Source: Eubacterium sp. (GTDB lineage Bacteria > Bacillota > Clostridia > Oscillospirales > Acutalibacteraceae). From it: DNA of 64,000 bases. Every line of letters begins with the position of its first letter. Positions within the stretch are counted from its first letter, which is position 1. Below, one piece after another: positions 9,822 through 18,617 of the stretch. A program made the translations under genes and the position numbers. The stretch spans positions 377,001 through 441,000 of the forward strand of contig JARHZA010000002.1 in assembly GCA_029258375.1 (NCBI GenBank), given 5' to 3'. The notes below the pieces were generated by a model that saw only the letters and a list, made by a program, of their open reading frames with translations, was not told the DNA's origin and did not search any database.

Positions 9822-9859
9822 AAAAGGGAGTAGCATTACGCTACTCCCTTTTTGTTTTG
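9822..9859 (+). terminator. Rho-independent terminator after the prophage lysis cassette
   Basis: Perfect 9-bp stem GGGAGTAGC/GCTACTCCC (9826-9848) with a 5-base loop, flanked by A and T runs, followed by TTTTTGTTTTG. It ends the endolysin transcript. Related hairpins occur at 11043, 12121 and 13065. Confidence 0.9.
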
Positions 9860-9891: not shown

Positions 9892-9920
9892 TTGACAAAA
9901 CTATTTTTGATATCTATAAT
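9892..9920 (+). promoter_or_regulatory. Consensus sigma-A promoter of the abiF RNA/gene
   Basis: TTGACA (9892-9897), 17-base spacer, TATAAT (9915-9920). Both boxes are perfect matches. Transcription would start near 9927, immediately before the structured RNA. Confidence 0.88.
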
Positions 9921-9926
9921 AAATAT

Positions 9927-9986
9927 AACATCTCCCCCGGGCCTCTATGTATTAGCATATGCACAATCGGGGGCATTCTGTTTTTA
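9927..9986 (+). ncRNA. abiF-type structured RNA upstream of the HEPN gene
   Basis: The transcript from the consensus promoter begins with a structured element: outer stem CCCCCG (9934-9939) with CGGGGG (9968-9973), an inner helix TATG/CATA around 9946-9959, and an unpaired CACAAT stretch before the 3' arm. It ends with CATTCTGTTTTT, so the hairpin is also terminator-like. A conserved RNA of this kind (abiF motif) is described upstream of AbiF genes. The layout short RNA - leaky terminator - HEPN gene resembles RNA-antitoxin systems; the antitoxin role is inference. Confidence 0.7.
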
Positions 9987-9997
9987 TGGAGACTTTT

Positions 9998-10873
9998 ATG
10001 TCTAAAGAGTTTAAAACAATCGAAGAACAATTAAGTATTCTTGAAAAAAGAGGATTGAAAATTGAGGATAAAGAAATAGCAAGGGATTTTTTGTTGCTAA
10101 ATAACTATTATAGAATTAGTGGGTATTCATTAACTTTAAGGGAACATGATATATTTTATGAAAATGTTAAATTTCAAAATATTATTGATATCTATAATTT
10201 CGATTATGAATTGCGACATATATTGTTGAAGTATATAGAGAAAATTGAAGTTTCTTTTAAATCAGTTTATGCACATTTTTTTAGTGAAATGTATGGCAAA
10301 TTAGAATATAGAAAAAGTATTAATTTTACAGATCCAACTAAGCATTTGAAATTAATTAAAAAAGTCGACGAGTTAGCAAATAAAAATATTGAATTTGAGT
10401 CGTGCTTAAAACATTATGCTATAGATTTAAAAGAAGAATATCCTATGTGGGTTTTTATTGAGTTATTTACGATTTCAGATATATCTAAAATGTATAGAAT
10501 TTCTAAGAATGAACTCAAGGAAAAAGTGGCATTCAAATTTAATTACAAAATGAGTAATGGATATGAATTTTTGGAAAAACATATGCATTCTATTACCATA
10601 ATTAGAAATTTATGCGCTCATAATAGTAGACTTTATAATAGATTATTTGTTTCAAAGCCGAATTTAAATTCTAAAGAAAAACAATTTTTAAATAGAGATG
10701 AAAATGGTGAATATGACAATTCACATTTGTTTGGATTTATTATGATTATGAGGCGCCTTTTAGAAAGAAAGGATTTTATAGATTTAAAAAAAGATATTAT
10801 TGAATTAACACATAAATATCCATTTGTTAGTTTAAAATATTATGGTTTTGGTCCGAATTGGAATGATTTATAA
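9998..10873 (+). CDS. abiF: AbiF/AbiD (Abi_2) family HEPN protein
   Basis: A 291-residue abortive-infection protein. The ATG at 9998 is chosen because GGAG (9988-9991) precedes it and because the product then starts MSKEFKTIEEQL as Abi_2 proteins do. An upstream in-frame ATG at 9959 would run through the RNA hairpin. The HEPN ribonuclease motif R-X4-H is present as RNLCAH (R203, H208), and an early YRISGY segment matches the family. Predicted action: RNA cleavage upon phage attack, held in check otherwise, possibly by the upstream RNA. It is the first gene behind the prophage lysis cassette, a common position for superinfection-exclusion cargo. Confidence 0.88.
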   Translation: MSKEFKTIEEQLSILEKRGLKIEDKEIARDFLLLNNYYRISGYSLTLREHDIFYENVKFQNIIDIYNFDYELRHILLKYIEKIEVSFKSVYAHFFSEMYGKLEYRKSINFTDPTKHLKLIKKVDELANKNIEFESCLKHYAIDLKEEYPMWVFIELFTISDISKMYRISKNELKEKVAFKFNYKMSNGYEFLEKHMHSITIIRNLCAHNSRLYNRLFVSKPNLNSKEKQFLNRDENGEYDNSHLFGFIMIMRRLLERKDFIDLKKDIIELTHKYPFVSLKYYGFGPNWNDL

Positions 10874-10882
10874 TTAGTGTCA

Positions 10883-10893
10883 TATAATATAAT
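10883..10893 (+). promoter_or_regulatory. Possible -10 element before the second RNA
   Basis: Two overlapping TATAAT hexamers (10883-10888 and 10888-10893) lie just downstream of the abiF stop. A -35 is poor (TTGGAA at 10858 with a 19-base spacer). The second RNA might instead be processed from the abiF transcript. Confidence 0.35.
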
Positions 10894-10896
10894 AAC

Positions 10897-10940
10897 AGTT
10901 CCCAAGAGCCAGATTCGGCGCAATACTTTGGGCCTTTTGT
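10897..10940 (+). ncRNA. Second abiF-RNA-like hairpin downstream of the HEPN gene
   Basis: Outer stem CCCAAG (10901-10906) pairs with CTTTGGG (10926-10932, one bulged T). An inner stem GCC/GGC (10908-10919) has a 6-base loop, and an unpaired GCAATA lies before the 3' arm. CCTTTTGTT follows. The order of parts (C-rich arm, RGCC, small hairpin, GCA(C)AAT, G-rich arm, T-rich end) repeats that of the upstream RNA at 9934-9986. Function is unknown. Confidence 0.5.
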
Positions 10941-10963
10941 TAGCGAGAGTTTTACTCTCGCTA
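10941..10963 (+). terminator. Hairpin after the second RNA
   Basis: A 9-bp stem TAGCGAGAG/CTCTCGCTA with a 5-base loop. It has no clean T run after it, so it may be a 3'-end stabiliser or part of the RNA structure rather than a terminator. Confidence 0.45.
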
Positions 10964-11040
10964 TAGTATATTAGGTTTATACTATGCAGATAATAATTAT
11001 ACGTTAAAATCTTACCATGTCAATTATATATGAAATAAAA

Positions 11041-11071
11041 AAGGGAGTAGCAAAATGCCACTCCCTTTTTT
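11041..11071. terminator. Terminator hairpin, second of four related copies
   Basis: GGGAGTAGC/GCCACTCCC (11043-11065) with loop AAAAT, one mismatch, A run before and T run after, so it can act on both strands. It is nearly identical to the hairpins at 12121 and 13065 and similar to the one at 9826. It separates the abiF unit from the membrane-protein unit. Confidence 0.8.
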
Positions 11072-11260: not shown

Positions 11261-12091
11261 GTGATTTGGATTATTGTTGTTACTACTTTAATTTTGCTTT
11301 TGCCTATTATAGGAATTGGTGTTGTATCAAAATTTGGAATGAATTTGTTTGAAGAACCAGAATTCTGGTATTCTTATATGTCATATTTTGGGGCGGTTGT
11401 TTTAGGCGCTATTGCCGTTTGGCAAAATAAAAATGCTCAAAAGGTAAATGAAAAACTAACAAAAGAAAATAATAATTTGCAAAAGATTATGGTTCAAAAA
11501 ATGCTACCTATAGTTAAAGTTGAATCCGTAAAAACTTTATGCACAAATACAAATACGAATAAAATTAGTAAAACTAAATTGCCAAGTAAAAATTCATATT
11601 CACTTGCTATAGTTCAGAAAATACATTTAGGAGCACAAAACAACGATGCAATACAAGATAGTAGAGACTTACGAGTAATCAAAGTGAATGTAGATGCAGA
11701 TGATAATGCTCTGTTCGAAAAGGAAGTAACATTTTCAATAAACAATATATCAGATACTTTCATACGGCATATAGAAATAGAAAAAATAGAAATTAGTGGA
11801 TATAAAGGTGCTTTTGAATATGTAGTATGTAACAATGAAATAAAAGGAAATGGAATTTCAGAGTTACTGAGTTTTAGCGATACAGTTAATTTCAAAATGA
11901 AATTTTTCTTTAATGATAAACAAAAGAAAGAATGCTGGGATAATATTTTGGGCGGTATAGCATTTACGATATATCTTACAAGCACTTCAATAAACGGAAT
12001 TAAATTTAACGAATATATTTATATAGATGTAAGCAATGAAGGAGTTTGCAAGACTTCTTATGGCGAATGGGATTTACAAGAATATAAGTAA
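11261..12091 (+). CDS. Unknown membrane-anchored protein of the accessory island
   Basis: A 276-residue protein starting at GTG, with AAAGGA 10 bases before it. Two hydrophobic helices (residues about 2-22 and 40-58) are followed by a Lys/Gln/Asn-rich coiled segment (58-85) and a soluble, beta-rich domain of about 190 residues, probably cytoplasmic. I do not recognise the family. Similar architectures (two helices, short coiled coil, soluble domain) occur among accessory proteins next to prophages. It has its own promoter and lies between two island-type terminators, so it looks like an independent cargo unit. Confidence 0.7.
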   Translation: MIWIIVVTTLILLLPIIGIGVVSKFGMNLFEEPEFWYSYMSYFGAVVLGAIAVWQNKNAQKVNEKLTKENNNLQKIMVQKMLPIVKVESVKTLCTNTNTNKISKTKLPSKNSYSLAIVQKIHLGAQNNDAIQDSRDLRVIKVNVDADDNALFEKEVTFSINNISDTFIRHIEIEKIEISGYKGAFEYVVCNNEIKGNGISELLSFSDTVNFKMKFFFNDKQKKECWDNILGGIAFTIYLTSTSINGIKFNEYIYIDVSNEGVCKTSYGEWDLQEYK

Positions 12092-12105: not shown

Positions 12106-12335
12106 TATAAATGTAAAAAAAGGAGAAGCAAAATGCCACTCCCTTTTTAGTTATTTGTTTTCTTTAATGAAATTTTCAATAGCAGCCTTAATTACACTGG
12201 CTTGTGATACACCTTTGCTTTTGCATAGTTCTTTAAATTCTGCAACTAATTCTTTTGGCAGTTCTGCTTTAACAGTGGAATAAACTTTATTATTATATCT
12301 GCGTTTAACTTCACTGCTTGTTGATGTTTTTTTGT
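12106..12335. repeat. Direct repeat copy 1 (about 230 bp)
   Basis: Starts at TATAAATGTAAAAA and contains a terminator hairpin plus most of the RHH gene. It is repeated with few substitutions at 13051-13280. The two copies are about 945 bases apart. Confidence 0.9.
12115..12148. terminator. Terminator hairpin, third of four related copies
   Basis: GGAG and AGC pair imperfectly with GCC and CTCC around loop AAAAT (12121-12144), with A and T runs outside. It serves the membrane-protein gene on the plus strand and the RHH gene on the minus strand. Confidence 0.75.
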
Positions 12336-12345
12336 TTTCAGTCAT
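12151..12345 (-). CDS. Ribbon-helix-helix (CopG/Arc-like) protein, copy 1
   Basis: A 64-residue protein with a charged N-terminal arm (residues 1-20), a beta strand (VYSTVKAELP) and two helices (ELVAEFKELCKSKGV and SQASVIKAAIENFIK). This is the RHH_1/CopG fold, which binds DNA as a dimer. A near-identical paralogue lies at 13095-13292. The start is preceded by AAGGAAG, and a 27-residue membrane peptide ends five bases upstream, so the two form an operon. It may regulate itself or the neighbouring toxin-like peptide; target unknown. Confidence 0.85.
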   Translation of the reverse strand: MTENKKTSTSSEVKRRYNNKVYSTVKAELPKELVAEFKELCKSKGVSQASVIKAAIENFIKENK

Positions 12346-13050: not shown

Positions 13051-13280
13051 TATAAATGTAAAAAGGGAGAAGCAAAATGCCACTCCCTTTTTAGTTATTT
13101 GTTTTCTTTAATGAAATTTTCAATAGCAGATTTAATCACACTGGCTTGTGATACGCCTTTACTTTTGCATAGTTCTTTAAATTCTGCAACTAATTCTTTT
13201 GGCAGTTCTGCTTTAACAGTAGAATAAACTTTATTATTATATCTGCGTTTAACTTCACTACTTGTTGATGTTTTTCTGTT
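13051..13280. repeat. Direct repeat copy 2 (about 230 bp)
   Basis: Second copy of the repeat at 12106-12335, covering the terminator hairpin and most of the second RHH gene. Similarity fades at the RHH start codon on one side and at TATAAATG on the other. Confidence 0.9.
13061..13092. terminator. Terminator hairpin, fourth of four related copies
   Basis: GGGAG and GC pair with GC and CTCCC (13065-13087) around loop AAAAT, with A/T runs outside. It ends the second RHH gene on the minus strand. Confidence 0.78.
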
Positions 13281-13292
13281 TTTTGTTTCCAT
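13095..13292 (-). CDS. Ribbon-helix-helix (CopG/Arc-like) protein, copy 2
   Basis: A 65-residue paralogue of the RHH protein at 12151-12345; after the first few residues only about one position differs (SVIKSAIENF against SVIKAAIENF). GGAGG stands before the start. Its 5' end overlaps the upstream membrane-protein gene by 35 bases. Near-identity at protein level with synonymous changes at DNA level suggests that both copies have been kept functional. Confidence 0.85.
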   Translation of the reverse strand: METKNRKTSTSSEVKRRYNNKVYSTVKAELPKELVAEFKELCKSKGVSQASVIKSAIENFIKENK

Positions 13293-13668: not shown

Positions 13669-13703
13669 GGTTTTTATTTTTATAAAATATAATTTTAAAT
13701 TTT

Positions 13704-13736
13704 AAAAAGCCCCCTAACTATTAGGGGACTTTTTTA
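13704..13736. terminator. Bidirectional terminator after azlD
   Basis: Stem AAAAAG.CCCCTAA / TTAGGGG.CTTTTTT with one mismatch; T runs on both strands. It ends azlCD on the minus strand and the putative antisense RNA of module 2 on the plus strand. Confidence 0.82.
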
Positions 13737-13744
13737 TATTTAGG

Positions 13745-18122: not shown

Positions 18123-18275
18123 TTATTTAATCTCCTTTCTTTTTTCATAATATGCAAATTTGCGAAAAATGACAAATAAGAGAAAAAACTTTTTTTACAT
18201 ATAATGGATTAAGATGTTTAAATTATTAAAGTTGAGGTCAAAATATAAATGAACTAAAAAACGAGGGTGATTATA

Positions 18276-18617
18276 ATGACAGTTAAACGTGGCGAAATAT
18301 ATTATGCAGATTTAAGTCCTGTTGTAGGTTCTGAGCAGGGTGGAGTAAGACCTGTTTTAATCGTTCAAAATGATATAGGAAACAGATTTTCGCCAACGGT
18401 AATCGCCGCCGCAATAACAAGTCAAAAAGATAAAAACAATCTTCCAACACACATAGAAGTGGATGCAAGAGATTGTGGTCTTTCGAAAGATAGTATAGTT
18501 CTTCTTGAACAAGTCCGTACAATAGATAAACGCAGACTTCGTGAAAGAATGGGTTCGCTTGACGGCGGAGATATGGGAAAAGTAAATGAGGCTTTGTCCG
18601 TTTCTTTTGGACTGTAA
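18276..18617 (+). CDS. mazF: MazF/NdoA-type mRNA endoribonuclease toxin
   Basis: A 114-residue PemK/MazF protein. The ATG at 18276 is chosen for its GAGGGTG site six bases before; a GTG nine bases upstream overlaps that site. RGEIYYADLSPVVGSEQGGVRPVLIVQND is the conserved start of the family, and TQIRTIDKRRL-type sequence (EQVRTIDKRRL) is near the C-terminus. It cleaves specific mRNA sequences under stress. No antitoxin gene adjoins it; in many Clostridia MazF is encoded without one or near alr. Confidence 0.92.
   Translation: MTVKRGEIYYADLSPVVGSEQGGVRPVLIVQNDIGNRFSPTVIAAAITSQKDKNNLPTHIEVDARDCGLSKDSIVLLEQVRTIDKRRLRERMGSLDGGDMGKVNEALSVSFGL

Follow-up and report, generated by a model that had tools for sequence, protein, structure and literature searches.

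The 64,000-nt stretch of DNA under study (the window) harbours an abiF-like gene which, with its promoter and an upstream structured RNA, forms the feature reported at 9892-10873; a second structured RNA lies just past the stop codon. The ORFs upstream match phage tail tape measure, minor tail protein, tail fibre, holin and endolysin families, and by this homology the left part of the window is a prophage. The predicted phage-borne position after the lysis genes is thereby borne out, and homology as well as comparative evidence support the view that the abiF-like unit is a prophage moron. On its left the module is bordered by an intrinsic terminator after the endolysin gene (9822-9853, plus strand, with a 13-pair stem and a T-run), on its right by a terminator-like direct repeat (11039-11070, plus strand) that is 88% identical to the first. 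Units similar to these flanking terminators recur in the host genome (G000 C3:389099, C3:390060 and C2:352848). After the module follows a gene for a 276-aa protein (11261-12091), for which Pfam, PADLOC, NCBIfam and PHROG searches gave no match at the limits applied. Two near-identical ribbon-helix-helix (CopG) proteins are encoded about 0.75 kb apart on the minus strand (12151-12345 and 13095-13292), and an ORF at 18267-18617 resembles the MazF/EndoA endoribonuclease by eye.

The consensus promoter that had been read from the sequence is a sigma-70 promoter on the plus strand (9892-9920) with a -35 box TTGACA (9892-9897) and a -10 box TATAAT (9915-9920); it matches the consensus at 12 of 12 positions and has a 17-nt spacer. 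From it a start site near 9927 is expected. A promoter scan of the region returned 10 sites with at least 9 of 12 matches, compared to 11.0 in shuffled sequences. Two of these 10 sites are perfect, namely this promoter and one on the minus strand (11023-10996). The latter faces left, across the hairpins that follow abiF and in the direction of the abiF 3' end, and may possibly give rise to an antisense RNA. Downstream of the plus-strand promoter lie, on the same strand, the upstream RNA with its U-tract (RNA A, 9927-9985), the abiF-like gene (9998-10873), a -10-like box TATAAT read from the sequence (10883-10888), the second abiF-like hairpin (RNA B, 10894-10943) and a further hairpin (10942-10962). 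Both RNAs are supported by a model match and by covariation in relatives. The last hairpin occupies the position of an intrinsic terminator in most relatives and has a poor T-run in the window.

The best start of the gene is the ATG at 9998, preceded by a GGAG ribosome-binding site (9988-9991), which gives a product of 291 amino acids. The Abi_2 domain PF07751 matches the protein with 142.7 bits against a Pfam cut-off of 25.6 (translation taken from the ATG at 9986). Further matches were obtained to AbiD of PADLOC (E 2.2e-74) and to a PHROG abortive infection protein (E 3.3e-59). Sequence comparison with solved structures pointed to PbAbiF (8vz6, E 7.6e-21), and a Foldseek search with an AlphaFold2 model (pLDDT 94.9) gave this same entry, 'PbAbiF dimer bound to ncRNA', as the only match at E <= 0.001 (E 5.5e-14, TM-score 0.84). 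The HEPN R-X4-H motif was correctly predicted at R203-H208; it reads RNLCAH and is encoded at 10604-10621. Residues R203, N204, A207 and H208 are invariant across 16 aligned sequences, the window protein among them; in a wider set of 39, the first three remain invariant and H208 is found in at least 90%. Pfam domain, HEPN motif and modelled fold all place the protein in the AbiF/Abi_2 family, and by homology it is likely an RNA-cutting AbiF-family toxin and a relative of Cas13. A scan of viral sequences with the window protein as single query found no relative.

The compact hairpin predicted at 9934-9973 proved exact to the base. In the outer stem, CCCCCG (9934-9939) pairs with CGGGGG (9968-9973), followed inwards by GC 9941-9942 with GC 9961-9962 and by an apical stem of AUGU (9947-9950) with GCAU (9955-9958). 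As a single sequence this fold is modestly above chance (z -1.6; 9 of 200 shuffles were equally stable), and comparison with relatives was therefore used. The same hairpin recurs at the equivalent position upstream of the gene in relatives. In an alignment of 57 upstream RNAs 87.9% of the cells are paired, and 72 cells are changed on both sides compared to 25.5 in column shuffles; the covariation score was matched by none of 500 shuffles. Covariation in homologues is thus present, as the prediction of a functional RNA implied. Pairing drops to 35-58% when partners are slid by 1-3 columns. One pair is G-C in the window and A-U in 48 of the 57 rows. The RNAalifold consensus moves part of the outer stem by one column, which probably reflects misalignment of some rows at that point. 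A model built from the 57 rows, window included (R2), scores the window RNA, itself a training row, with 74.6 bits, and finds RNA A upstream of the gene at E <= 1e-4 in 77 of 84 loci, a set which includes the 57 training rows and near-copies. The misses are L078, for which the set contains no upstream DNA, L104, whose match begins at residue 28, and five distant loci (L111, L112, L116, L126 and L127). A weak R2 match elsewhere in the window (13703-13743, 20.2 bits, E 0.02) is probably due to chance.

It had been noted that an abiF RNA motif (in Rfam, family RF03085) occurs upstream of such genes, and a leaky terminator had been proposed between the upstream RNA and the gene. By-eye comparison with the RF03085 consensus showed the same architecture in RNA A, i.e. 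an outer stem, a short inner stem in the same order, the GCCUCU...AUGC core and a 3' bulge. RNA A of the window differs from RF03085 by an additional apical stem, and it stays below the Rfam gathering score (37 bits). A scan of the region alone gave 28 matches up to E 5, none of them to RF03085, and a search of 100 host-family genomes with RF03085 gave nothing above the cut-off; the phiC2 locus, used as positive control, scored 37.6. RNA A was left outside RF03085 because the gathering threshold was not reached. The T-rich tract is present as a U-tract at 9981-9985, 7 nt past the stem, but a terminator scan called nothing behind RNA A, its sole match being 9822-9852, and the leaky terminator is therefore unproven. 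A different RNA, consisting of a GTGTTGC-type hairpin and a separate terminator, was seen by eye in front of the Abi_2 genes of L018, L022, L025, L029 and L035; this RNA of another Abi_2 clade may be a further antitoxin class.

Beyond the original prediction lies RNA B. Its outer stem in the window is formed by 10901-10905 with 10928-10932 and its inner stem by 10908-10910 with 10917-10919. The window and its relatives share the consensus RAC-UCCYAYGAGCC-loop-GGCGCAAUACURURGG. Across an alignment of 43 rows, no cell of the 5-bp outer stem is left unpaired and four of its five pairs are doubly changed; the inner stem is 98.4% paired. RNAalifold recovered both stems unprompted. A conserved basal stem was considered and dropped (50.6% of cells paired). 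For the whole structure tried, basal stem included, four of five covariation measures were above shuffles, and further pair types were below them (11 versus 12.6). An alignment of 16 rows was too diverse for scanning and one of 5 rows was used. Model R1, trained on RNA B alone (43 rows, window included), scores the window copy, again a training row, with 59.1 bits and finds RNA B in 53 of the 84 loci at E < 1e-6, the 43 training rows among them. The gap between stop codon and RNA B measures 31-32 nt in 36 of these 53 loci and 20 nt in the window; in L113, where the frame is broken, it is 903 nt. A -10-like hexamer (at least 5 of 6 matches, within the 16 nt before RNA B) was found in 45 of the 53 loci compared to about 12 in shuffles. 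A terminator pattern follows RNA B in 42 of them compared to 1.9 in mononucleotide shuffles; this pattern is lenient and counts the window despite its poor T-run. Two other roles for RNA B were dropped, that of a CRISPR-like guide on account of the variable loop, which spans at most 9 alignment columns, and that of an antisense RNA on account of the terminators behind it, which run on the plus strand.

The occurrence of RNA B is closely tied to the gene. A search with R1 over 398 host-family genomes, under strict filters by which weak matches can be lost, yielded 6 matches at E < 1e-10, all directly after an abi gene, and these 6 genomes are the ones with the best protein matches. Another 19 matches up to E 0.1 did not exceed 21.5 bits. 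Since all strong matches lie beside an abi gene and the rest score so low, RNA B is not a common hairpin. In a tree of 90 proteins, 49 of the 59 rows of one clade (SH-aLRT 98) have RNA B or a B-like copy, as does 1 of the 31 rows outside that clade. Left out of the tree were 6 duplicates, a further 7 rows that were near-copies or had cut ends, and ORFs under the length limit, which include broken or truncated genes. The distribution fits one origin of RNA B followed by several losses, read from a quick tree in which gain and loss are not distinguishable. Absence from 10 of the 59 clade rows indicates that RNA B is dispensable.

The two RNAs look like paralogues when their models are compared. 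Applied to the 514 kb of the 84 loci, R1 gave, next to the 53 RNA B copies, 64 weaker matches (E 0.0012-0.28), of which 62 fall on RNA A although R1 was trained without any A. Conversely, R2 reports 22 RNA B positions, some weakly. As each model re-finds the other RNA, RNA B appears to have the antitoxin-type fold. The 3' bulge differs, being GCAAUAC in RNA B versus ACAC in RNA A, and hybrid downstream copies bearing the bulge of RNA A occur in L067, L083, L089 and L094.

Solitary copies of both types were found in other viruses. Virus contigs were searched with two core patterns. Twenty stretches were obtained for RNA A, of which 13 are real by R2 (>33 bits); 3 of these adjoin an abi gene and 10 are without one. 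The RNA B pattern gave 116 stretches, and among the 80 examined 5 are real by R1, two adjoining abi (L238 and L252) and three without. This first RNA B pattern was too loose, and a stricter one added none. L306 (21.1 bits) was not counted as solitary RNA A, although its flanks form a stem. Furthermore, the bacterial genome G162 carries RNA A without any Abi_2 match. A PF07751 search of whole records was negative in all 14 records with solitary A or B (13 viral plus G162) and positive in 2 of 2 controls. The 14 records are partly dependent, L183 and L187 being related, as are L305, L310, L311 and L313. None of the virus records searched whole, here and for the classical type below, was rated 90% complete, and the absence of Abi_2 from them can therefore be incomplete. 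At Rfam thresholds neither RNA A nor RNA B was called in the window, nor were the solitary copies in the 9 loci, out of the 14, that were scanned; blastn searches of phages and of plasmids, each with two single RNAs, were of no use (plasmid matches of 25 nt, E 0.1).

Where tested, the genes next to the solitary RNAs are phage genes. In L187 the RNA lies between the genes for the portal and the major head protein. Other neighbours are an integrase (L209), a large terminase (L309) and a head maturation protease (L256). The L312 RNA has its own TATAAT and a repressor-like regulator gene nearby. The solitary A RNA is kept in two related phages (L183 3155-3216 and L187 7089-7150), and by eye a terminator-like hairpin stands behind the L187 copy. 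The virus record of L315 (150 kb) has no Abi_2 and shows, by eye, a tandem pair of abiF-like hairpins (1464-1570), in a CRISPR-repeat-like arrangement of which only the first hairpin was scored by the model.

Classical RF03085-type RNAs show the same phenomenon. The classical core AGCCTCTCAACGATGC occurs in at least 120 virus stretches, of which 80 were examined; 56 of the 80 have the outer stem by our own rule, and for 55 of these 56 a home-made HMM detected no Abi within the stretch examined. Fifty records (49 of the 56 plus L344) were searched whole. Among the matches listed, PF07751 was found in 1 of the 50, and RF03085 was above its cut-off in 39 and below it in 11. At least 38 virus records thus harbour a curated RF03085 RNA without an Abi_2 gene. 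The outer stem is present in 42 of 61 distinct hits among the matches listed, compared to a mean of 11.7 and a maximum of 22 in 500 permutations of the 3' flanks, a procedure that takes no account of relatedness among hits. These hits have 26 different 5' arms, again among the matches listed. The stems are real as a set, and about one fifth of the hits would obey the stem rule by chance (11.7 of 61 permuted). A tRNA gene lies within 200 nt of 20 of the 69 solitary RNAs among the matches listed, compared to 2.8 at random. This association shrinks when related flanks are clustered: the 69 RNAs form 37 flank clusters, of which 6 are near a tRNA gene compared to 1.22 at random, likewise among the matches listed. 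In all six the RNA is on the same strand as the tRNA genes, and the association is suggestive, not strong. The complete genome of cyanophage S-CREM1 (178 kb) carries a single RF03085 RNA, flanked directly by tRNA-Asn on one side and tRNA-Gly on the other, and has no PF07751 match at E <= 1. One abiF sRNA has been reported for this lytic phage, like the solitary copies described here, with a general remark on a possible function in infection (PMC9964418; repeated in PMC12197685). In the part of that description available, no role as antitoxin mimic is given (PMC9964418).

Earlier publications describe AbiF together with an antitoxin RNA upstream of its gene and connect it with Cas13 (PMC12373285; PMC12165695; PMC12737573). 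AbiF_Cd of the C. difficile prophage phi027 is reported to be toxic and to be countered by RCd22, an RNA antitoxin identified by toxicity assays and co-purification, and R202 and H207 mutants in the same HEPN motif lose toxicity (PMC12373285). In both AbiF_Cd/RCd22, as far as it is described in the available text, and the window, an Abi_2 HEPN protein is encoded after or within the phage lysis genes in the order promoter, structured RNA, gene, and the RNAs share the same type of hairpin core. In RCd22 two tandem motifs lie upstream of the gene and the terminator is separate, whereas in the window RNA A is upstream and RNA B lies downstream behind a -10 box of its own. The protein of phiC2, for which 99.88% identity to AbiF_Cd is reported (PMC12373285), shares 31.6% identity with the window protein, and a search of the phiC2 locus (L032) found no RNA B. 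The PbAbiF-AbiFr complex (PDB 8VZ6; Zilberzwige-Tal et al., Cell 2025) resembles the window unit in fold and sequence and is described as a HEPN dimer with two RNAs, one bound per monomer (PMC12373285); identity in the fold alignment is only 24%. Like type III-like TA systems, the unit has a structured RNA directly upstream of the gene, on the same strand and under one promoter. The tandem upstream repeats are absent: there is one upstream motif, and the second copy lies downstream. For this reason the unit is not filed as canonical type III and is proposed to work like one.

Taken together, homology and the covarying RNA directly upstream argue for an RNA-controlled HEPN toxin of the AbiF family, as the original prediction had it; the suggestion that the RNA guides the nuclease found no support. 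The two related hairpin RNAs that flank the gene probably keep the AbiF-like toxin in check. We consider it probable that the unit is a prophage-borne, RNA-neutralised AbiF HEPN toxin between two paralogous RNAs, and that solitary phage copies of these RNAs neutralise the AbiF of a host. In this model the AbiF-type HEPN ribonuclease would act as a dimer. The strong promoter would mostly give RNA A, starting a few bases on, instead of toxin mRNA, and read-through past RNA A would yield little toxin. RNA B would be a second ligand, made separately, as it usually has its own -10 box before it and a terminator after it. RNA A and RNA B may fill the two sites of the dimer together, or RNA B may top up the antitoxin; with two RNAs bound in the PbAbiF dimer, a complex holding one A and one B suggests itself. 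A superinfecting phage that upsets transcription would then release free AbiF, which would cut RNA and stop growth. In counter-defence, phages without AbiF would carry a solitary A, B or classical abiF RNA and soak up the AbiF of the host.

By analogy, the solitary phage RNAs may be regarded as decoys, an 'RNA anti-AbiF'. The pseudo-ToxI of phage PhiTE is a similar case. RNA anti-CRISPRs (Racrs) have been reported to block CRISPR-Cas systems, and in the available part of a survey candidates are named for all types except type VI (PMC10651486). Like Racrs, the solitary copies are phage-borne versions of an RNA element bound by a host defence protein, present in phage records without the defence gene, most of these virus records being fragments. 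Unlike in the case of Racrs, for which blocking has been demonstrated, the link to AbiF is drawn here by analogy. More tentatively, and at somewhat less than an even chance, AbiF may be engaged in an RNA arms race, in which one clade employs two different antitoxin RNAs, encoded on either side of the gene and perhaps each serving one monomer of the dimer, and many phages, lytic ones included, carry stolen or mimicked solitary copies of the inhibitor, sometimes abutting tRNA genes.

Other readings of RNA B and RNA A have to be weighed against this antitoxin model. RNA B could be a 3' untranslated element of the abiF mRNA, serving protection, processing or termination and not antitoxin-like. A constant spacing of 31-32 nt from the stop codon (36 of 53 loci) and the terminator pattern behind RNA B (42 of 53) agree with such an element. 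We nevertheless regard it as unlikely, as R1 re-finds RNA A and R2 re-finds RNA B at 22 positions, a -10 box stands ahead of RNA B in 45 of 53 loci, and RNA B occurs solitarily in three virus records without the gene. It is still less probable that RNA B is an anti-antitoxin or activator, displacing RNA A and freeing the toxin. Its 3' bulge, GCAAUAC instead of ACAC, may be the counterpart of a bulge in PbAbiFr that is reported to be inhibitory (PMC12737573), and RNA B is placed downstream, seemingly under separate control; but the hybrid copies with the bulge of RNA A sit at about the same downstream place, and solitary RNA B in phages fits neutralising better than activating. The least credible of these readings, to be entertained with strong reservation, takes RNA A for a transcription attenuator that acts in cis only and is never bound by the toxin. 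A hairpin and U-tract directly before the ribosome-binding site are what it predicts. No terminator pattern was called behind RNA A, however, and much of the conserved core (CUCU...AU, ACAC) is unpaired, as expected of protein binding and not of termination; moreover, the C. difficile RNA is reported to act in trans and to bind the protein (PMC12373285).

The solitary phage RNAs could also be decaying remnants of lost abiF modules or have an unrelated phage function, and not inhibit AbiF. This explanation is a serious one, to which we give a chance not far short of even: the A- and B-type records are few and some are interrelated, the virus records are mostly fragments, and many classical hits come from related phages (69 RNAs in 37 flank clusters among the matches listed). 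Against decay, stems are kept while the sequence changes (42 of 61 versus 11.7 permuted, with 26 different 5' arms, among the matches listed). The L312 RNA has its own TATAAT and L315 the tandem pair seen by eye, and the L187 copy is flanked by portal and major head protein genes that look intact.

In the titles and opening lines of abstracts covered by a literature search, no downstream paralogue and no solitary AbiF-inhibitor RNAs were mentioned. The novelty of RNA B and of the solitary inhibitors is provisional, since the main AbiF paper (Cell 2025) lay outside this search. A- and B-type RNAs are missed by annotators, Rfam thresholds calling none in the window. AbiF is the proposed ancestor of Cas13, which raises the question of how an antitoxin RNA encoded in cis turned into a crRNA with a transcript of its own. 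The present clade, where a duplicate of the RNA lies beyond the other end of the gene and mostly has its own promoter box in front, would be a concrete and testable intermediate. If the solitary copies block AbiF, mimicry of defence RNAs would extend beyond CRISPR to HEPN abortive-infection toxins, and the phage RNAs would provide a ready set of natural inhibitors.
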